The notes below the pieces were generated by a model. That model was given only the letters and a program-made list of their open reading frames with translations, did no database searches and was not told the origin of the DNA. Made by a program: the position numbers and the translations under genes. Positions 207 to 43,424 of a stretch of 64,000 nucleotides of DNA are shown here, piece after piece. Source of the DNA: Gemmatimonadota bacterium (GTDB lineage Bacteria; JAAXHH01); the NCBI GenBank assembly GCA_009838645.1, contig VXRC01000017.1, positions 1-64,000 of the forward strand, written 5' to 3'. Position 1 is the first letter of the stretch. Each line of letters starts with the position of its first letter.

Positions 207-1502
207 TCACTCCACGTAAACAGCAATTCGGTGCATGGCATTGTTCAAATAGCCGTCGGGATTCCACGCGATGGCGTGGGGCTGACTAACGCCGCGCGAA
301 TCCGTCGCCCTGGCCCAGACTTCGAAATACCCCTCCTGCGGGAATGAAACCTCCGCCCGCCAGTTCTGCCAGGCGTAGGCGTTCACCGGATCATCCAGCG
401 TTGCGGGCATCCAGGTCGCCCCGAAGTCGCTCGACAGGTCCACCGAGTCGACGCGCCCCTCGCCCGTCCAGGCATGACCGCGCACTTCAACCGAGCCTTC
501 CGTTGTCCGGTGTCCCGTCGCGGGATGAGTGATCAGCGACTTCACCGGCATGCGCTCGATGATGCGGAATTCCTTTTCGTCCACGGTCTCTCCGGGCGCG
601 ATCCCCCGGTCTGGCAAGCGGTATGAGGTCCCGGTCATCTTGGGACCGTCGTGTACCTGGTCCCGAACCTCAACGCGGATGAGCCACTTCTGGGAACAGG
701 AACCGGGCCAACCGGGGACGATCAGCCGCAGCGGGCCGCCGTTCATCGGGTGGATCGGCTGGCCGTTCTGGGCGAAGGCGACGAGATTGTGCGGGTCCGT
801 GGCCTTGTCGATCGGAACCCCGCGGGAGATGGGAAGCCCGGCCGAAGCGCCGGACAGATGGGTATCGGCGCCGTAGTGGGCGGTGTAGACGGCATCGGGC
901 CGTACACTGGCGGCTGCCAGGACGTCAGACAACCGCACGCCCGTCCATTCCGAGCAGGCCACCGCGCCGTAGGTCCACTGTTCGCCCTTCGTCTTCGGGT
1001 CGAAGAAAGCCCGTCCGTTGCCCGCGCATTCCAGGGCCAGCGCGCGGGTTACGACTTCGAAGCGCGCTCCTAGATCATCGAGACCGAGCGTCAACGGGTG
1101 GTCGACCAGGCCATCGATCGCCAGTGTCCAGCGCGATGCGTCCAGGTCCTCGGGCATCAGCCCGTTGTTACGGACGAAGTGTCTTTCGGTGGGCGTAATG
1201 GCATCATCGAGGAAGTGCGGCGGGGTCTCCGCGCACATGGGCCGGTCATTGAGGACCGTGAGGCCGTCTTTGCCTGGAATGACCCCTTCGGCAGCCAGGG
1301 CCACGGGAATGAAGTGGGCGGGGATGTTGCGGTGGAAGGGGATCGCGGCGCCGACCAGCGCGCCCATGGCCGCCAGGCCTGCGTTCTTCAGGAATCCGCG
1401 CCGATCGGAATACGTGCGGCGTCCGAACAACAACCGGTCGGCCTCGTCGGGGTCTTCCCGGTAGAGTGTGTTAAGCCGCTTGATCGAAGGATCGTCGCCC
1501 AT
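207..1502 (-). CDS. Molybdopterin-dependent sulfite oxidase-like protein, Tat-exported
   Basis: This 431-residue protein matches the sulfite oxidase/SoxC/YedY superfamily. The N-terminus has a twin-arginine type signal (DRRGFLK near residues 34-40, then a hydrophobic stretch), so periplasmic location is likely. The molybdenum-ligand motif LECAGNGR is present with the cysteine near residue 159, followed by the oxidoreductase core (HPMNGGPLRLIVPGWPG) and a C-terminal Mo-co dimerisation domain (VEVRGHAWTG, WARATDSRG). Family members oxidise sulfite, or reduce sulfoxides, with a molybdopterin cofactor. No cytochrome subunit gene is adjacent; the upstream genes are two Rieske proteins, which could be electron partners (inference). 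The substrate remains open. Confidence 0.88.
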   Translation of the reverse strand: MGDDPSIKRLNTLYREDPDEADRLLFGRRTYSDRRGFLKNAGLAAMGALVGAAIPFHRNIPAHFIPVALAAEGVIPGKDGLTVLNDRPMCAETPPHFLDDAITPTERHFVRNNGLMPEDLDASRWTLAIDGLVDHPLTLGLDDLGARFEVVTRALALECAGNGRAFFDPKTKGEQWTYGAVACSEWTGVRLSDVLAAASVRPDAVYTAHYGADTHLSGASAGLPISRGVPIDKATDPHNLVAFAQNGQPIHPMNGGPLRLIVPGWPGSCSQKWLIRVEVRDQVHDGPKMTGTSYRLPDRGIAPGETVDEKEFRIIERMPVKSLITHPATGHRTTEGSVEVRGHAWTGEGRVDSVDLSSDFGATWMPATLDDPVNAYAWQNWRAEVSFPQEGYFEVWARATDSRGVSQPHAIAWNPDGYLNNAMHRIAVYVE

Positions 1503-1547: not shown

Positions 1548-3299
1548 CTACGACTCGTACAGATCCACCGCGGTCTGCCCCTTGGCGAACCGCAGGGCCG
1601 TCGCAGCGGCGGACTGGCTGCCCGTGGCGCGCCGGCTGTCGGTGGCCCAGCGTGCCAGACCGACCAGCAGCTGGTTGCGCGAGGGGTGATCCGCGCACAG
1701 GGTCCACTCGTCGAAGATCGTCCGCAGCGTGGAGAGGATGTTGCGGCCGTTGTCGTCCTTGAGGATCACCAGGCCGAGGCCGCGGAGCAGCGCGTCCCCC
1801 GAGTAGCCGGAGCGCAGGTAATCCCGGGTCTGCCTACCGATCTCCCTGATCTGGATCTTCTCGATGGACGAAAGGACGCTTTCGATCGCTTCGGACTCGT
1901 CCGCGCTCCCCGGCTGCAGACTGCCGCGGGACTCGGACAGGGGCCGGTGGGTGATGTTCAGCCACCGGTCGCCGTAGAACTGCCAGGCGACGTGATACAG
2001 GGCCTGGGCGGCGACCCGGGATCCGGCAAACCGCTGGGCCTTGCGCACCGCGGAGGCCATCATCATCTCCCGGACCAGTCCCCCCCAGCCGGGGTTCATG
2101 TTCACCGGCGTACGCGCCATGCGGTCCGCGGCGAGGATCACCATGGTCGTCACGATCCGATCGATGGATACACCATCTCTCAACGCCTGCGTGACCGCGC
2201 TGAAGGTCGGTCCGATTTCGCCGCTGACCAGGCCTTCGGCGAAGGCATCCTCATCGAACGCCACGGCGGAACCGCCGGCCTGTCCGTCTTCGAGGGCATC
2301 CAGCGTCGCCGTGTCGGCGATGAACCGGTCGATAGCCGACTGCCGGATCTCGTCGGGCAGTCCCCGCTCCTGGCCCAGGATCTTGGCCGACAGGTTGCAG
2401 ACCAGTTCCTCCGACTCGTCCCATCCGAACTCCTCGAGCACCTCCGCGATGTAGCCGATGTTGAGCAGGTTGTTCGAATTGCCCAGGAAATGGGGCGCCA
2501 TGGCGCATTCGAAGAGCAGCGGAAGGATCTCGTGGTCATGTCCGCCCATCCGCCGGGCGGTGATCAGGCACTTCTCGATGCCTTCCCATTTCTTGTCTTT
2601 CGAAAATACCCGGATCCAGCCTTCGAGTTTCTCCCAGGTAACCGGGTCGGGCAGCCGCTGGATGCTCGGCCGGTCCCCGGCGCGGCCCGACAACCCGTGG
2701 GCGGCGAAGGTCAGCGGGATGATCCGGTCGTCGCTCTCGTACTGACGGGCTACCTTGATCCCGTTGACAAAATCCGAAACCTCTCCGCCGCCGTCGTTGG
2801 CCCCCCGCTCCGTAGCGATGTGCCGGCCGCCGTGACGGATGATGAGGTTGAGCGTGTCCCGCTCGGACACGCCCCGCGCCAGCATGATGGCGACGGCCTT
2901 GGATATGGTCCACTGGTCCGTGGAATAGAGCCCTTCCTTCAGCAGCAGTAAATGGGCGTCAGACCGTTTCGATCCGCCGTCTCCCACACTAACGTATACG
3001 TCGCCGTTTCGCTCTTCAACCGGGAAGGTCTCCAGGTCGTCGCACCCGCCGGTGAAACAGCCGCCCCCGCCGAGGTCGTAGCTCCATCCGTGCCAGTCGC
3101 AGGTCAGCACGCCGTTGCGGACGCGCCCCCGGGTCAGCGGGTAGCCCATGTGGGGACACTGGTTGTCCGTGGCGTAGATCGACCCGTTGTGCCGGAAGAG
3201 GGCGATGCTCCGGCCCTCCACTTTCACGGCCTTGGGCTTGCCGTCCACCACCTCGTCCGCACCTGCCACCTTCACGTAGCCATTCTGTTCAGTTGACAT
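1548..3299 (-). CDS. Rieske [2Fe-2S] protein with large unrecognised helical C-terminal domain (copy 2)
   Basis: The first ~110 of 583 residues form a Rieske ferredoxin domain with the cluster ligands in CPHMGYPLTRG (C-x-H) and CDWHGWSYDL (C-x2-H). The remaining ~470 residues are mostly alpha-helical and I do not recognise the family. Conserved stretches shared with the neighbouring paralogue include RHGGRH, MARTPVN, AWQFYGDRWLNI and HPSRNQLLVGLARWATD. A GGAGAGG site precedes the ATG. It lies between its 598-residue paralogue and the sulfite-oxidase-like gene on one strand, which suggests joint expression and a redox role. Rieske oxygenases have a different catalytic domain with a 2-His-1-carboxylate iron site; that fold is not evident here. 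Confidence 0.8.
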   Translation of the reverse strand: MSTEQNGYVKVAGADEVVDGKPKAVKVEGRSIALFRHNGSIYATDNQCPHMGYPLTRGRVRNGVLTCDWHGWSYDLGGGGCFTGGCDDLETFPVEERNGDVYVSVGDGGSKRSDAHLLLLKEGLYSTDQWTISKAVAIMLARGVSERDTLNLIIRHGGRHIATERGANDGGGEVSDFVNGIKVARQYESDDRIIPLTFAAHGLSGRAGDRPSIQRLPDPVTWEKLEGWIRVFSKDKKWEGIEKCLITARRMGGHDHEILPLLFECAMAPHFLGNSNNLLNIGYIAEVLEEFGWDESEELVCNLSAKILGQERGLPDEIRQSAIDRFIADTATLDALEDGQAGGSAVAFDEDAFAEGLVSGEIGPTFSAVTQALRDGVSIDRIVTTMVILAADRMARTPVNMNPGWGGLVREMMMASAVRKAQRFAGSRVAAQALYHVAWQFYGDRWLNITHRPLSESRGSLQPGSADESEAIESVLSSIEKIQIREIGRQTRDYLRSGYSGDALLRGLGLVILKDDNGRNILSTLRTIFDEWTLCADHPSRNQLLVGLARWATDSRRATGSQSAAATALRFAKGQTAVDLYES

Positions 3300-3382
3300 G
3301 ACTGATTACCTCTCCGATGTTTCGCGTATTTTTTTGTCAGAAGATCCGCGTCTGCAGTCCGTTATCTGTAGTCCGGAGATCC

Positions 3383-5179
3383 CTAGTCGTCGAACACTTC
3401 GACCGTCGTCCGTCCTTCCGAGAACCGCATGGCCGTGTTGATGGATGCCATGCTGTTCTTGTTCAGGCGCACGTCCGTCGCGTACCTGGCCAGCCCCACC
3501 AGGAGCTGGTACCGGGACGGGTGACCCGATCCGCGGGCGGCGTCCGCGCCGCCTGCGTCCGCGCCGCCTGCGCCCGCGCCGCTCGTGCCTTCCCATTCAT
3601 TGAAGGTGACGCGCAGCGTGGGCAGCAGCTCCATGTTGGTATCGTCCCACAGGATGGCCCGGCCGATTTCCCTGAGCAGCTCCGAACCGTCGAAGCCGCT
3701 GTTCAGGTAACCCACCACCTGGTCGCCCACCCCGTGGATATCCAGCGACTTGATGGCATGGACGATGCGCTCCGAAGCGGAGACCCCGTCCGGCGCGTCC
3801 GAAGCATGATCCGGAAGGGGTTCGTCGAGGGCGCGGGAGGGAATGTTGATCCAGCGGTTGTCGAAGATCTGCCAGGCCGCGTGGAAGAGGCCCTTCGCCG
3901 CGGCCGCGGGACCGCCGTAAACGAGGACGTGCCGCAGGGAGGCCGCCAGGTTGTACTCGGTGGACAGGGAACCCCATCCGGCGTCGACGTTCACGGGCGT
4001 GCGGGCCATGCGGTCCGCCGCGAGCAGGACGAAGGTCGTGATGAGGCGCTCGATGGCCACGCCTTCCCGCAGGGTCTTGGCCACGGCTTCGAAAGCGCGT
4101 TCGACGTCCACGCTCAGCAGGGCGTCCACGAAGGCGTTCTCGTCGTAGTCGGTGCGGGTGTTCGCCCCGTAATCCCGGGATTCGAGTTCAGGCGCGAGGC
4201 CTTCGAGCAGGCGCACTGCGTCCCGGTGAAAACGCTCCGGCTCGTCCCGTCCCCGCCCGACCATCTTGGCGCCGAGGTTGCAGACCAGTTCGGACGCCTC
4301 GCCCCATCCGAAGGTATCCACCACCCGGGCGAGGTCCCCCAGGTTGGCCACGTTCCGGGCGAAGCCCAGGAAATACGGAGCCACGGCGCATTCGAACAGC
4401 AGCTTGAAGATGTGCTCTTCCTGGCCGTTTTCGCGGGCCGTGTGCAGGCACCGTTCGATCCTGAAATCCTGCATGTTGCGGGAGAACATGCGCACCCAGC
4501 CGTCGATCTGATCCCAGCTCACGGGCGGCGGCAGCGTGATGACCTCGAGCCGTTCAGACGCCCGCCCCGACGCTGCGCGACCGGCCAGCGACAGGGCCAT
4601 CAGGCGGTCCTCCCCGTCGTACCTACGGCCGACTTCGAGGCCGGAGACCAGGAGGGAAACGATGTCGCCGCCCCCGCCCGCGCCCTGCTCCGACGCCACG
4701 TGACGGCCCAGGTGCCGCAGGACCAACTGCACGATGTCGTGTTCCGAAACGCCGCCGGACAGCAGCAGGGCGGTGGCCTTGGAGATCGTCCACGAATCCC
4801 CGCTCAGGAGTCCCTCCCAGAGCAGCTGCAAGTGCTGGTCGCGGCGCCGGTAGGTCGCGTCCCCGGCCTGAACCCACAGTTCGTCCCCGCGGATGTCGAC
4901 CGGGAAGGTCTCCAGGTCGTCGCATTCGTAGTTGAAGCAACCGCCGCCTTCGAGATCGAAGCTGCGTCCGTGCCAGTCGCAGGTCAGGACGCCGTCCTTC
5001 ACCACCCCGCGCGTCAGTGGAAATCCCATGTGGGGACACTGGTTGTCCGTGGCATGGATGCGTCCATCCACGTTGAACAGGGCGACGCTGCGCCCTTCGC
5101 TGATCTTGACGGCGCGGGATTCGCCGGGCGGCACGTCCGCGAGGGAACCTACCCGGATCCAGCCGTTTCCTGCGCTCAT
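3383..5179 (-). CDS. Rieske [2Fe-2S] protein with large unrecognised helical C-terminal domain (copy 1)
   Basis: This 598-residue paralogue of the downstream gene has the same layout: an N-terminal Rieske domain (CPHMGFPLTRG and CDWHGRSFDL supply the two Cys and two His ligands) and a ~480-residue helical domain of unknown function. Shared blocks are RHLGRHVASEQ, MARTPVNVDAGWGSL, HAAWQIFDNRWINI and HPSRYQLLVGLARYATD. A Gly/Ala/Asp-rich insertion, encoded by three 15-bp tandem repeats at 3540-3584, sits before the HPSR block and is absent from the paralogue. The start ATG follows a GGAAAGG-like site. Co-orientation with the second copy and the sulfite-oxidase-like gene suggests a shared redox process. 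Two tandem copies imply duplication and possibly a heterodimer. Confidence 0.8.
   Translation of the reverse strand: MSAGNGWIRVGSLADVPPGESRAVKISEGRSVALFNVDGRIHATDNQCPHMGFPLTRGVVKDGVLTCDWHGRSFDLEGGGCFNYECDDLETFPVDIRGDELWVQAGDATYRRRDQHLQLLWEGLLSGDSWTISKATALLLSGGVSEHDIVQLVLRHLGRHVASEQGAGGGGDIVSLLVSGLEVGRRYDGEDRLMALSLAGRAASGRASERLEVITLPPPVSWDQIDGWVRMFSRNMQDFRIERCLHTARENGQEEHIFKLLFECAVAPYFLGFARNVANLGDLARVVDTFGWGEASELVCNLGAKMVGRGRDEPERFHRDAVRLLEGLAPELESRDYGANTRTDYDENAFVDALLSVDVERAFEAVAKTLREGVAIERLITTFVLLAADRMARTPVNVDAGWGSLSTEYNLAASLRHVLVYGGPAAAAKGLFHAAWQIFDNRWINIPSRALDEPLPDHASDAPDGVSASERIVHAIKSLDIHGVGDQVVGYLNSGFDGSELLREIGRAILWDDTNMELLPTLRVTFNEWEGTSGAGAGGADAGGADAARGSGHPSRYQLLVGLARYATDVRLNKNSMASINTAMRFSEGRTTVEVFDD
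3540..3584. repeat. Three 15-bp tandem repeats inside the Rieske paralogue
   Basis: Units of the form gcgtccgcgccgcct occur three times, the last one diverged. On the coding strand they give a GGADA-type pentapeptide series. The unit length preserves the reading frame. Confidence 0.85.
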
Positions 5180-5284: not shown

Positions 5285-8047
5285 CTAGTGGGCTTCCAGC
5301 CAGTTCGCGCCGATGCCGATTTCCACTTCGATGGGCACGGTCATGGGCAGCGCGCCCCGCATGCATTCCTCGATCAGGCCGGGCACGGTGTCCTGTTCCG
5401 ATTTATGCAGGTCGAAGACGAGTTCGTCATGCACCTGCAGCAGCATCCGCGTGCGGCACGCCTGCTTTTTCAACTCGTTGTGAATCCGCGTCATGGCCAG
5501 CTTGATCAGGTCGGCCGCCGTGCCCTGGATGCGGGAATTGATGGCGACGCGCTCCTCGGCGCGCTTGGTGGTGTTGTTCCGGGAATTGATGTCCCGCAGG
5601 TACCGGCGCCGGCCCGTCATGGTCTCGACGAATCCGTTCTCCTCCGCGAACTTGACCGTTTCGTCCATATACTTGCGCGTCCCCGGATACTTCGCGAAGT
5701 ACTGGTCGATCAATTCCTGGCCCTGACCCCGCGGGATGTTGAGCCGTTCGGCCAGCCCGAAGGCGGAGATGCCGTAGATAATCCCGAAATTCACGGTCTT
5801 GGCGCGCCGGCGCATCTCGTCGGTCACGCCGTCGTAGTCCACGTCGTAGATCTTCATGGCCGTCGCCGAGTGGATGTCCTCGTGCTGGATGAAGGTCTCC
5901 ATCATGCCCTCGTCACGGCTGAGCTCGGCCGCGATGCGCAGTTCGATCTGGGAATAGTCCGCGGCCATCAGGAGGTAGTTGTCGTCCCGCGGCACGAAGG
6001 CCTTCCTGATCTGCCGGCCCATCTCCGTACGGACCGGGATGGTCTGCAGGTTGGGCCCGTGGGACTGGATCCGGCCGGTGGCGATCACGGCCTGTTCGTA
6101 GGAGGTATGCACGCGCCCGGTCTGCTGGAACACGGCGTGGGGCAGCTGGCTGACGTATACGGAATTGAGCTTGGTGCACATCCGGTAGTGGAGAATCTGT
6201 TCCACGATCTCGTGCTTGGGCGCAAGCCGGCGCAGTATGGCTTCCGCCGTCGAATACTGGCCGGTCTTGGCCGTGCGCTTGGCGTTGGGATCGATTTTCA
6301 GCTTGTCGAAGAGGATGTGCCCGAGTTGCTTGGCCGAATTGAAGTCCACGGATTCCCCGGCCAGTTCGGTGATCCGGTCCGAAGACCGCTGTATCTCTTC
6401 ATCGAGCAGGCTAGAAAGGTGCTCGAGCTGCCCCACGTCCATCCGCACGCCTTCGTGCTCCATTTCCACGAGAGCGGGCACGAGGGGGCACTCGATGTCC
6501 GTGAAGACGGTATCCTGGTTCATCTCGCCGATCCGGGGCCGCAGGAGTTCGGCCAGCTGCAGCGTGATATCCGCGTCCTCGGCCGCGTATTCCACGACCT
6601 TTTCCAGCGGCGCATCCTTCAGCGTGCCCTGATCCTCGCCCTTCTCGCCGATGAGCGTGGTGATGGAGATCGGCGTGTAGCCCAGGAGGGCCTGGGAGAG
6701 GTAATCCATGGTGCGGCGCAGGTCCGGCACGGTCACGTAGGCCGCCAGCATCGTGTCGAAGATGCGGCAGGACACGGTGATCCCGTGCCACCGCAGCACG
6801 GAAAGGTCGAACTTGATGTTGTGCCCGATGAGCTCCCTGCCGGTATCGTCGAAGAGGGACTGGAACTCGCCGGCGACCCTCAGTACCTGCTTCCGTCCGT
6901 CGGGCATGGGCACGTAGTAGCCGATATGCGGCTTGATCGAGAAGGCAAAACCCAGGATTTCGCAGGTCTTGGGATCCAGGCTCGTCGTTTCCATGTCGAA
7001 ACAGAAGGAAGACGCACGGGAAAGCTCGTCGATAAGTGCCGCGCGGGCTTCTGCGGTGTCAACGCAACGGTAGTCGTGCTCCACCTCCGCGATCGTCTTC
7101 AACTGGTCGTCGGAAAACAGGTCTTCCTGGCTGCCGGCGACGGTCAGCCGGGGGGCCGCCGAGAAATCGTCCCCGAAGAGCCGCTTGCCCAGGGTATTGA
7201 ACTCCAGCTCGACGAACAGCTTCTTGAGTTCCTCCTCCTTACGTTCCTTGACGGTCAGCGCGTCCGGGGTGACGTCCAACGGCACGTCCCGCTCGATGGT
7301 GACCAGGCTCTTCGACAACACGGCCATGTCCCGGTTATCCTCGATGCGCTCTTTCTGCTTTCCCTTCAATTCGTGGGTGTTTTCCAGCAGGTTCTCTACG
7401 GACCCGAACTGGGCGATGAGCTTCTGCGCGGTCTTTTCGCCGACCCCCGGGACGCCGGGCACGTTGTCGCTGGTATCCCCCATGAGTCCGAGCACGTCGA
7501 TCACCTGGTCGACCCGCTCGATTCCCCATTTCTCCAGCACCTCGGCCACGCCCATGGTTTCGAAGTTGTCCCCGGTGTTCCCGGGTTTGCAGATGTAGGA
7601 CTGCTCGGAAACGAGTTGCGCGTAGTCCTTGTCCGGCGTGACCATGAAGGTGGTGAAACCCGCTTCGTCGGCCTGCTTCGCCAGGGTCCCGATCACGTCG
7701 TCGGCCTCCCAGCCCGGGACGCGGATCACCGGGATGTTGAACCCTTCGATCAGCCGGAACAGGTAGGGCAGCGCGATGCTCAGGTCTTCGGGCATGGCGT
7801 CCCGCTGCGCCTTGTACTCGGGATACTGCTCGTGACGGTGGGTCGGTTCGGGCGTATCGAACACCGCGGCGATGTGGGTGGGCCTGTTCTTGTTCAGGAT
7901 GCCGAGGATGGTATTGGCGATGGCGAACACCATGGATACGTTCATTCCCGTCGAAGTCATCCTCGGATTACGGATCAATCCGAAATGACCGCGATAGGCC
8001 AGTGCCATCCCGTCCAGCAGGAACAGGGTCTTCTGGGCCTCAGTCAT
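5285..8047 (-). CDS. polA: DNA polymerase I
   Basis: This 920-residue protein has all three PolA modules. The N-terminal 5'-3' exonuclease has AVFDTPEPTHRHEQYPEYKA and EADDVIGTLA plus the H3TH region (GDTSDNVPGVPGVGEKTA). The 3'-5' exonuclease keeps its acidic residues (FDMETTSLDP, GHNIKFDL), so proofreading is probably active. The polymerase has motif A (MAADYSQIELRIAAELS), motif B (RRRAKTVNFGIIYG) and motif C (LLQVHDELVFDL). It acts in Okazaki-fragment processing and repair. The length is normal for full-length bacterial PolA. It lies 105 bases upstream of the Rieske pair on the same strand; no functional link is expected. Confidence 0.98.
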   Translation of the reverse strand: MTEAQKTLFLLDGMALAYRGHFGLIRNPRMTSTGMNVSMVFAIANTILGILNKNRPTHIAAVFDTPEPTHRHEQYPEYKAQRDAMPEDLSIALPYLFRLIEGFNIPVIRVPGWEADDVIGTLAKQADEAGFTTFMVTPDKDYAQLVSEQSYICKPGNTGDNFETMGVAEVLEKWGIERVDQVIDVLGLMGDTSDNVPGVPGVGEKTAQKLIAQFGSVENLLENTHELKGKQKERIEDNRDMAVLSKSLVTIERDVPLDVTPDALTVKERKEEELKKLFVELEFNTLGKRLFGDDFSAAPRLTVAGSQEDLFSDDQLKTIAEVEHDYRCVDTAEARAALIDELSRASSFCFDMETTSLDPKTCEILGFAFSIKPHIGYYVPMPDGRKQVLRVAGEFQSLFDDTGRELIGHNIKFDLSVLRWHGITVSCRIFDTMLAAYVTVPDLRRTMDYLSQALLGYTPISITTLIGEKGEDQGTLKDAPLEKVVEYAAEDADITLQLAELLRPRIGEMNQDTVFTDIECPLVPALVEMEHEGVRMDVGQLEHLSSLLDEEIQRSSDRITELAGESVDFNSAKQLGHILFDKLKIDPNAKRTAKTGQYSTAEAILRRLAPKHEIVEQILHYRMCTKLNSVYVSQLPHAVFQQTGRVHTSYEQAVIATGRIQSHGPNLQTIPVRTEMGRQIRKAFVPRDDNYLLMAADYSQIELRIAAELSRDEGMMETFIQHEDIHSATAMKIYDVDYDGVTDEMRRRAKTVNFGIIYGISAFGLAERLNIPRGQGQELIDQYFAKYPGTRKYMDETVKFAEENGFVETMTGRRRYLRDINSRNNTTKRAEERVAINSRIQGTAADLIKLAMTRIHNELKKQACRTRMLLQVHDELVFDLHKSEQDTVPGLIEECMRGALPMTVPIEVEIGIGANWLEAH

Positions 8048-21626: not shown

Positions 21627-23027
21627 CTAGTACGTACTCTTCGCCGTCGTCAGGGGACACCACCGCGAGGCCTGCAGCCAGTGCAGCAGCGTGCGCAGTG
21701 CCTCCGGCGTGCCGATCTGTTCAAGGGCGATGGCGGCCTGGCCCTGCACGTACCGGTTTTCATCGTAGCACGCGTCCGCGAGATGCGGAATGGCCGTCTG
21801 GGCCTCGTCCCCGAACCGGGCCAGCGCGTAGGCGCTCCTGGAACGCACCTGCTCGTCCTCGTCCTTCATCATGCCGACCAGCGCGGGAACGGACGCATCC
21901 GCGGCCAGCTTGATCTGGCCCAGGGCATCGGCCACGTTTTGGCGGACAAAGGGCGACGGGTCGTCTGTCAGATCTGCCAGGCGCCCCGCAACCGAAGGGT
22001 TGTGGTGCCGGATGTCTCCGAGGGCGTAGACCGCGTAGCCCCGGACGCGTTCGTTTCCGTGTCCGAGCAGGGAGACCAGCGGTTCGACGGCCGCGGCGCC
22101 CAGCGCGCCGAGCCCGTAGCACGCTTCCCGCCGGACTTCGTCCTGTTCGTGCTGAATCGCCTCGAGGAGATGCGGAAGCGCGGCCTCACCGCACTCCGCC
22201 AGGGTATAGGCCGCGTGCAGGCGCTTCTGTTCGAGTTCGTGGGTCAGATCGCCGGCGAGCGCTTCGACGTGTTCCGCGCCTTCCCGCCGGGTCCCGGCCG
22301 ACCAGTTTCCGGCAAGCCAGTGCCACATGTTCCGCCACATGGCGCTCCGGGGATCTTCCGACAGGTTTCCGAGGTCGATATCATCGCATTGCCGGTTCCA
22401 CCACGGGCGCTCGGGCTCCGACATCCGCGTGAACTGGAACTTCATCATGTACCGGACCTTGTCCGTCTGGTTCGGAAACGCCCGGTGCCATAGATCGAAG
22501 TGTATGATGGTAACGGTTCCCGCCTTGCCGCTTGCGGGGAACCCGTCGGGGACGGACCCGTTCCCGCCGACCGTCTCCTCGCGGGACTCGACGTAGTGGC
22601 TGCCCGGTATCACCCCCGTCGGACCGATTTCCACCGGGGTGTCCTGGGGATAGTACATGGCCATGATCCAGCGCGGATGGTGGTCCCGCACCTTGGTATA
22701 TCCCCAGTAGCTGTCCTTGTGCCAGGCGCCTCCCCGGCTGTTCGGCGGGTTCACGTGCGGGTGGCGGTGGGCGTGCATGACGTAGTCCGGTCCAAGCAGG
22801 CTCGTCAGCGCGCCCTGCACCCTGGGATCGTCGTAGACCTGTTGGATCTCGGGCACACGAGGCAGCAGGTTGTTTCCCGGATTCCCGTCTTCGTCGATGA
22901 TCGCCTTCGTTTTCTCGTATATGTCATCATGCAGCGCGGCCGGCTTTTCCACGCTGATCACGTGATAGCCGTTCACGATGAAGTCGCGCATGGCGTCATC
23001 GTCGAAAAGGTAGGTTCTGTCCACCAT
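21627..23027 (-). CDS. Phytanoyl-CoA dioxygenase-family protein fused to HEAT repeats
   Basis: Residues 1-~240 are an Fe(II)/2-oxoglutarate PhyH-type oxygenase: AWHKDSYWGY supplies His-x-Asp, HFDLWHRAFPNQTDKVRYMM supplies the distal His and the 2OG-binding Arg. Residues ~260-450 form about six HEAT/PBS-lyase-like repeats (for example EVRREACYGLGALGAAAVEP and QVRSRSAYALARFGDEAQTA). PhyH enzymes hydroxylate small molecules; HEAT repeats generally mediate protein contacts, so the fusion suggests a macromolecular partner or scaffold (inference). It is convergent with the DUF6785/6784 gene, 17 bases away. The extension beyond a simple PhyH protein is clear. Confidence 0.88.
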   Translation of the reverse strand: MVDRTYLFDDDAMRDFIVNGYHVISVEKPAALHDDIYEKTKAIIDEDGNPGNNLLPRVPEIQQVYDDPRVQGALTSLLGPDYVMHAHRHPHVNPPNSRGGAWHKDSYWGYTKVRDHHPRWIMAMYYPQDTPVEIGPTGVIPGSHYVESREETVGGNGSVPDGFPASGKAGTVTIIHFDLWHRAFPNQTDKVRYMMKFQFTRMSEPERPWWNRQCDDIDLGNLSEDPRSAMWRNMWHWLAGNWSAGTRREGAEHVEALAGDLTHELEQKRLHAAYTLAECGEAALPHLLEAIQHEQDEVRREACYGLGALGAAAVEPLVSLLGHGNERVRGYAVYALGDIRHHNPSVAGRLADLTDDPSPFVRQNVADALGQIKLAADASVPALVGMMKDEDEQVRSRSAYALARFGDEAQTAIPHLADACYDENRYVQGQAAIALEQIGTPEALRTLLHWLQASRWCPLTTAKSTY

Positions 23028-41922: not shown

Positions 41923-43032
41923 ATGACTGAAACCGAATCGAAAGCCCCATCGCCCATCGGTCTCATCGACTGCGACCTGCACCACGGGGTCGTGGAAATC
42001 GATGATCTCTTCCCCTTTCTCCCCAGCCATTACGTGGAATATGTGAAGGATTTCGGGTCCATGATGCCCGGCCTAGTGTATACCAATCTCCCCAAGGGCG
42101 GCTGCCGGGCCGAACTCTGGGAACACACCGAAACCCATCCCAGCAGCAACATCGAACTGGCCCGCAGGCACCATCTCGATGAATACGGCATTGACGTCGC
42201 CCTGTTGACCGGAGTAACGGTGTACGGCGCGGCCGTCCACCCGGACGCCGACTTCGGCGCCGCCATGTGCCGGGCTTTCAATGACTGGACCCTGGAGACC
42301 TGGATCAAGTCGGACGGGCGATTCCGGGCATCGGTGGCCATCGCGCCGTCCGATCCGAAGCAGGCGGCCGCGGAGATCCGACGCATCGGCGGTCGTCCCG
42401 AGGTGCTCCAGGTCATCATGCCCGCCGGGGGGCGCATGCCTTTCGGGAACCGGTTCTACGACCCGATTTACGAAGCTGCGCAGGAATGCCGGCTTCCCAT
42501 GTGCGTGCACTTCGGCGTAGAGGGCGCCGGCTTTGCCAATGCGCCCACGGCCGCCGGATATCCCTCCTACTACCTGGAGATGCGCATGGCCCGGCCCCAG
42601 ATCGCCATGGCGCATGTATCGAGCCTGATCTGCGAAGGCACGTTCGAGAAATTCCCCGGTCTGAGATTCCTGTTCATCGAACACGACACCTTCTGGGTGC
42701 CCGGCCTCATGTGGCACATGGACGCCGACTGGAAGGCGGTCCGCGACTACACGCCGTGGGTCAAGCGGCCGCCCAGCGAATATATCCGGGACCACGTAAG
42801 GTTCGGATGCCAGCCCATGGAACAGCCGCCGACCCGGAAGGACCTCAGGACCTTCCTCGACTGGCTGCATGCGGATGAGATCCTGGTCTATGCGAGCGAC
42901 TATCCCCACTGGGACTGGGAGTCACCGGATTCGGTACTGCCCGGCGTGGATGCGGAGTTGAAGCGGCGGGTGTTCGTGGAGACGGCCCGGGAACTGTACG
43001 GCCTGGACGAAAACGGAAACCCCAGCGAATGA
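41923..43032 (+). CDS. Amidohydrolase family protein (amidohydrolase_2)
   Basis: A 369-residue metal-dependent hydrolase/decarboxylase of the TIM-barrel superfamily. The N-terminal LIDCDLHHGV replaces the usual HxH with D-x-H, as seen in some decarboxylase-like members. Other parts are AAQECRLPMCVHFG, RFLFIEHDTFWVPG and the C-terminal LVYASDYPHWDWESP, where Asp and His are likely ligands. Its last four bases overlap the start of a Rieske protein gene (ATGA), and that gene overlaps the peptide-binding protein gene, so the three are translationally coupled. The substrate may be an aromatic or cyclic acid (inference). Confidence 0.85.
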   Translation: MTETESKAPSPIGLIDCDLHHGVVEIDDLFPFLPSHYVEYVKDFGSMMPGLVYTNLPKGGCRAELWEHTETHPSSNIELARRHHLDEYGIDVALLTGVTVYGAAVHPDADFGAAMCRAFNDWTLETWIKSDGRFRASVAIAPSDPKQAAAEIRRIGGRPEVLQVIMPAGGRMPFGNRFYDPIYEAAQECRLPMCVHFGVEGAGFANAPTAAGYPSYYLEMRMARPQIAMAHVSSLICEGTFEKFPGLRFLFIEHDTFWVPGLMWHMDADWKAVRDYTPWVKRPPSEYIRDHVRFGCQPMEQPPTRKDLRTFLDWLHADEILVYASDYPHWDWESPDSVLPGVDAELKRRVFVETARELYGLDENGNPSE

Positions 43033-43424
43033 GCCGCCGTTACGTGGTATCCGCCGTGGATGACTTTCCGCCGGGTGAACGGCGCATCGTCCCCGCGGGC
43101 GGGCGCGGCGGGATCGGCGTGTTCAACGTCGGCGGCCGGTATTACGCCCTGCGGAACCGTTGTCCGCACAAGGGCGGTCCGCTCTGCCTCGGCCGCCTGA
43201 GGCCCCATGTAACGGCGGATGAGGTATACTCGGTCGAACATCACGAGAAGCAGGTCCTGAAGTGCGCCTGGCACCAGTGGGAGTTCGACCTGGCAACCGG
43301 CCAGGCGCTTTACGATCCTCGCATGCGTGTCAAGACCTACCGGGTGGAGATCGAAGCGGATAAAGTGGTCCTGTACCTGGATGGACCGGAATCGCCTGCG
43401 AGGGAAGAAGGGAACATCCCGTGA
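43029..43424 (+). CDS. Rieske [2Fe-2S] ferredoxin-like protein
   Basis: A 131-residue single-domain Rieske protein. Cluster ligands are in CPHKGGPLCLGRL (C-x-H) and CAWHQWEFDLATG (C-x2-H), spaced by an insertion that is somewhat longer than usual. It probably serves as an electron carrier for an oxygenase or as a subunit of one, but no oxygenase alpha subunit is adjacent; the partner here is an amidohydrolase-family protein. Both ends overlap neighbours (ATGA and GTGA). Confidence 0.9.
   Translation: MSRRYVVSAVDDFPPGERRIVPAGGRGGIGVFNVGGRYYALRNRCPHKGGPLCLGRLRPHVTADEVYSVEHHEKQVLKCAWHQWEFDLATGQALYDPRMRVKTYRVEIEADKVVLYLDGPESPAREEGNIP

Follow-up and report, generated by a model that had tools for sequence, protein, structure and literature searches.

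The window, a stretch of 64,000 nucleotides, carries two neighbouring genes for proteins with an N-terminal Rieske domain and a large second domain, next to a gene for a molybdenum enzyme of the sulfite-oxidase family. The question raised by this locus is what kind of enzyme the two proteins (A and B) represent, and whether they share a pathway with their neighbour. Both open reading frames were found to be intact (Table 1), and the products, 598 residues for A and 583 for B, display 45.6% identity by BLAST and 47% in the alignment, in line with their earlier description as tandem paralogues. Across the genus of the window, dN/dS was about 0.10 for A, 0.07-0.10 for B and 0.15-0.16 for the molybdenum gene; A and B are under strong purifying selection. 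A polA-like gene (assigned by eye), A, B and the molybdenum gene follow each other on one strand with gaps of 105, 83 and 45 bp, so co-transcription of the four genes is possible. A third, divergent paralogue, absent from the earlier note, was found in the window's own genome (G000:C23:12862-14586). Elsewhere in the window, a stand-alone Rieske ferredoxin gene (43029-43424) overlaps the end of the open reading frame 41923-43032 by 4 bp, and a phytanoyl-CoA dioxygenase (PhyH) domain is fused to HEAT repeats (21627-23027).

Table 1. Positions of the genes, domains, sequence blocks and aligned residues of the A/B locus in the window
Feature	Position	Strand	Basis or remark
Protein A, Rieske + helical domain, 598 aa	3383..5179	-	ORF, Rieske match, orthologues, dN/dS
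Protein B, Rieske + helical domain, 583 aa	1548..3299	-	ORF, Rieske match, orthologues, dN/dS
polA-like gene (assigned by eye)	5285..8047	-	105 bp before A
Sulfite-oxidase-family molybdenum enzyme with Tat signal	207..1502	-	PF00174 + PF03404, TIGR01409
Rieske [2Fe-2S] domain of A, residues 7-104, ligands C48, H50, C67, H70	4868..5161	-	same four ligands in 32/32 A sequences
Rieske [2Fe-2S] domain of B, residues 9-104, ligands C48, H50, C67, H70	2988..3275	-	same four ligands in 33/33 B sequences
Helical C-terminal domain of A, residues 110-598	3386..4852	-	no library match; homology to B
Helical C-terminal domain of B, residues 110-583, with internal duplication	1551..2972	-	AF2, half-vs-half profile, fold match
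RHLGRH block of A (H156, H160), A/B-specific HxxxH	4700..4717	-	alignment
RHGGRH block of B (H156, H160), A/B-specific HxxxH	2820..2837	-	alignment
MARTPVN block of A, residue 391	3989..4009	-	
MARTPVN block of B, residue 394	2100..2120	-	
HPSRYQLLVGLARYATD block of A (H553)	3473..3523	-	
HPSRNQLLVGLARWATD block of B (H538)	1638..1688	-	
A R275 in place of the first near-invariant family His ('GH'), column 268	4355..4357	-	
A T407 in place of the second near-invariant family His ('HxxTxANA'), column 432	3959..3961	-	
A E517 in place of the third near-invariant family His, column 590	3629..3631	-	
B N276 in place of the first near-invariant family His, column 268	2472..2474	-	
B R410 in place of the second near-invariant family His, column 432	2070..2072	-	
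B N520 in place of the third near-invariant family His, column 590	1740..1742	-	

The N-terminal Rieske domain was recognised in both proteins (PF00355, 73 and 64 bits). All of the 32 A, 33 B and 37 related C-type sequences compared have the four ligands, and this conservation shows a normal Rieske [2Fe-2S] centre in A as well as in B. A cysteine pair close to the second ligand loop (C81/C86) was invariant in 65/65 A/B sequences and, as a pair, absent from the C-type ones. A and B resemble Rieske ring-hydroxylating oxygenases in the position of this domain, in the CxH...CxxH ligand pattern and in the fusion to a second domain. In contrast to those enzymes, the second domain is all-helical in the model, and neither protein matched in Pfam the alpha-subunit catalytic domain with its mononuclear iron site. 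A standard ring-hydroxylating oxygenase was thereby ruled out, as the earlier note had held.

The second domain, of about 470 residues, gave no significant match in Pfam or NCBIfam, whether A and B, a 20-member alignment or 8 more distant relatives were used, and searching the PDB sequences with profiles of the domain returned chance matches only. Its description as unrecognised thus stands for Pfam, NCBIfam and PDB sequences. The motif blocks reported before (RHxGRH, MARTPVN and HPSR) were located in both A and B, at residues 155-160, 391/394 and 553/538. The AlphaFold2 model, built from 21 sequences, was all-helical, with a pLDDT of 82 at full length, and of 85 with a pTM of 0.88 for the domain alone. 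When the first half of the domain was compared with the second by profiles, an E value of 7.6e-7 was obtained (probability 92%, 185 columns), which shows the domain to be an internal duplication.

No match reached E 0.001 in a Foldseek search of the PDB with the helical-domain model. Of the best 50 matches listed, the only one that covered the whole length with a plausible TM score was 8yxs, deposited under the names 'non-heme iron dioxygenase' and 'Oxidoreductase AflY', and this match was weak (Foldseek probability 0.75, TM 0.41-0.43, E 0.74). The full-length model was uninformative on the helical domain, since Rieske matches dominated the result. A profile of bacterial questin oxidases retrieved 8yxs together with BTG13 (7y3w-y) and PaD (8z4q), which places 8yxs in the questin-oxidase group. 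In hhalign, distant relatives of the helical domain ran collinear with questin oxidases over 338 columns, at non-significant values (P 0.024-0.065, probability 2% or less). Read by eye, all four conserved His of these relatives coincided with questin-oxidase His, and the Lys of some relatives (HxxK motif) fell at the position of BTG13 K377, which we take to be a carboxylated Fe ligand. With the His masked, the alignment register was partly kept, at some but not all positions.

Direct membership in the questin oxidase family (PF14027) was rejected: the Pfam profile matched neither A, B, the relatives scanned nor anything in the window's own genome, and hhalign stayed short of significance whether 1, 8 or 10 questin sequences were used. 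The likeness to AflY, BTG13 and PaD lies in a weak, size-matched helical fold match and four collinear His, the iron-site set being collinear in the distant relatives and missing from A and B. The A/B-type proteins differ from questin oxidases in having no significant sequence match, a Rieske fusion and, in A and B, the lack of these conserved His. The weak fold match and the collinear His make it likely that the helical domain shares a fold with the non-haem iron oxygenases of the questin-oxidase/AflY/BTG13 type. Profile search and structure prediction, which the earlier note had named as its check, hence returned no known family at significance, and pointed, short of significance, to kinship with these iron dioxygenases. 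No report of a Rieske-questin fusion was found in a literature search.

Proteins of the same two-domain architecture were detected by tblastn on plasmids of Metabacillus, Priestia, Nostocales and haloarchaea, where they are annotated as 'Rieske' proteins, and relatives also occur in many other genomes. The helical domain of these 'Rieske (2Fe-2S) proteins' is 44-48% identical to that of the C-type paralogue in the window's genome. They differ from A/B in keeping the His/Lys set described below, in being single in the loci read and in a helical-domain identity of only about 20%. A search of 384 genomes gave matches in 30, of which 16 belong to the window's own phylum. A separate search of that phylum gave a match in 16/16 genomes, and in the phylum of genome G054, hereafter the second phylum and perhaps Poribacteria, matches were found in 76/85 genomes. 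The Rieske domain is absent from some relatives (L111-L115), of which one, L114:3504-5018, bears a Tat-like signal, so some form of the helical domain may be exported. In five haloarchaeal plasmids (L044, L045, L046, L048, L057) the C-type Rieske gene lies directly upstream of the ribonucleotide reductase alpha and beta genes, preceded in 4/5 by an AsnC-type regulator. The C-type paralogues of the window's genome and of G012 are divergent from a winged-helix (ArsR/SufR-like) regulator gene (L020:9824-10486, L055:4106-4729). Several related MAGs carry isolate codes (COS, RHO, IRC) that fit Coscinoderma, Rhopaloeides and Ircinia, sponges sampled in a study that lists Latescibacterota and Poribacteria among the symbionts and describes extensive lateral transfer (PMC8163846); we infer that these MAGs derive from it.

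In the tree, A and B together formed one clade (support 100, stem 2.39). Within it the separation of A from B occurs once, and with support values of 77 and 89 in the group table the split is moderately supported. The two proteins thus appear to have diverged once, before their spread through phyla. B adjoins A in nearly all loci read other than those cut by a contig end, and the pairing is near-obligate.

The molybdenum enzyme beside the pair was confirmed as a Tat-exported one (TIGR01409) with a molybdopterin domain (PF00174, E 4e-49) and a dimerisation domain (PF03404, E 2e-20). These two domains are shared with the sulfite dehydrogenases SorA and SorT. In an alignment with SorA over 350 residues, the positions that we take to be the Mo-ligand Cys and the active-site Arg, Arg and Tyr were kept. 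The enzyme differs from SorA/SorT in having Asn at what is presumably the active-site His of SorA, in staying below the NCBIfam equivalog cut-offs (243 of 600 and 192 of 570 bits) and in having no dedicated cytochrome gene seen adjacent.

Within the genus of the window the enzyme was present in 12/12 genomes, in 11/12 on the same contig as B and within about 5 kb of it; in the twelfth it lies on another contig. No orthologue was found in G012-G015, among which G014 carries A-B; for G014, a genome 83% complete in which the contig with A-B stops directly past B, the absence is uncertain. In the second phylum an orthologue with 44% identity follows the C-type paralogue and not A-B (24/34 within 1.2 kb and 28/34 within 5.5 kb, among the matches listed). 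The A-B pairs of that phylum have no molybdenum gene nearby in the loci read; in most of these loci an ankyrin-repeat gene (PF12796) separates A from B or immediately precedes A (L053:8535-9815, L080-L099). The gammaproteobacterial pairs read have neither gene. There are therefore two separate associations with the molybdenum enzyme, one of A-B in the genus and one of a different paralogue in the second phylum.

The conserved linkage expected by the earlier note accordingly held in the window's genus and, through the other paralogue, in the second phylum, and failed where A-B stands without the gene, namely in Gammaproteobacteria, G014 and the second phylum. A fixed pathway is thus not established, and of the proposed undescribed redox pathway the repeated association with the molybdenum enzyme survives. 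The proposed link to a VOC protein does not: the genes neighbouring the locus in the window are polA (by eye), Amidohydro_2, Aminotran_5 and acyl-CoA dehydrogenase, with no VOC protein near A/B. VOC/glyoxalase genes adjoin Rieske-helical genes in G014 (L052:3976-4332) and G013 (L056:2043-2357), and these proteins had no match in the window.

The neighbourhood could be an inherited linkage without functional meaning, with A-B serving an unrelated process, a reading compatible with any mechanism and one that we consider tentatively possible. The pairs without a molybdenum gene in Gammaproteobacteria, G014 and the second phylum suit it, and so does the apparent lack of export of A/B, in contrast to the exported molybdenum enzyme. 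The occurrence of the same molybdenum subfamily beside a different paralogue in the second phylum, mostly at close range, speaks against it. Because the Tat signal is on the molybdenum enzyme and no signal peptide was seen by eye in A or B, direct electron exchange between them is unlikely. If the linkage is functional, the exported enzyme would belong to the same pathway as A/B, which are probably cytoplasmic, without being their direct electron partner.

In order to compare residues, 33 relatives outside the A/B clade were aligned by column with 24 A/B sequences. Three His are near-invariant in the relatives, at columns 268 (33/33), 432 (27/33) and 590 (33/33), and a Lys occupies column 275 in all 28 Rieske-bearing relatives. 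The A/B sequences have varied residues in these columns; in a listing that covers 10-12 of 12 residues per group and column, His appears in 2 A sequences at column 268 and nowhere else. Conversely, A and B have residues in common that are rare in or absent from C-type proteins, including H116, E122, D128, E146, H156, H160, R210, C264/265, E347/350 and H553/538. It is evident from the alignment that A/B have lost the family's His set and gained new invariant residues, among them an HxxxH.

The loss of the family set, taken with the new invariant residues, makes a two-subunit Rieske oxidoreductase or oxygenase, with questin-oxidase-like domains and a rebuilt active site, the most likely identity of A-B, an assignment to which we give slightly less than an even chance. 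The disappearance of every near-invariant family His, in columns that vary within A/B, would also be expected if the helical domain were catalytically dead, A and B then carrying electrons or sensing redox state through their Rieske centres and the helical part being a protein-binding scaffold. A helical duplication would suit such a role, as would the ankyrin-repeat (protein-binding) gene at most second-phylum loci. A dead domain is nevertheless unlikely, as many new invariant polar residues (H156, H160, E122, E146, R210, H553/538) go beyond the needs of a bare scaffold and both copies are under strong constraint. Even less probable is that one subunit alone is catalytic, through a putative new metal or cofactor site around the HxxxH, with the other structural or serving electron entry: H156 in 65/65 and H160 in 63/65 A/B sequences, both rare in C-type, and the single divergence of A and B before their spread would agree with this, but both subunits have the same new His set, so no asymmetry is visible.

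Under the preferred reading of A-B as a rebuilt two-subunit enzyme, the two proteins would be halves of an almost always paired system, and a heteromer is probable. In the relatives outside the A/B clade, the His/Lys set would be expected to hold a catalytic metal, with the Rieske centre feeding electrons to it; in A/B, where this set has given way to the new one with its HxxxH, the active site would have been rebuilt. Speculatively, the molybdenum enzyme might oxidise sulfite released from an organosulfonate. More broadly, the family may represent a class of Rieske oxygenases with a duplicated questin-oxidase-like helical iron domain, widespread in bacteria and archaea and rebuilt in the obligate A/B pair; this wider proposal is more tentative than the assignment of A-B itself.

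To our knowledge, Rieske centres feed electrons to one oxygenase catalytic fold. If the proposal is true, Rieske-dependent chemistry would extend to a further, unrelated partner domain found in both bacteria and archaea, and proteins labelled only 'Rieske (2Fe-2S) protein' would gain a function. The change of active-site residues in the paired A/B branch is under strong constraint and accessible to direct tests, and the sulfite-oxidase-type neighbour suggests where the substrate of A/B may be sought.
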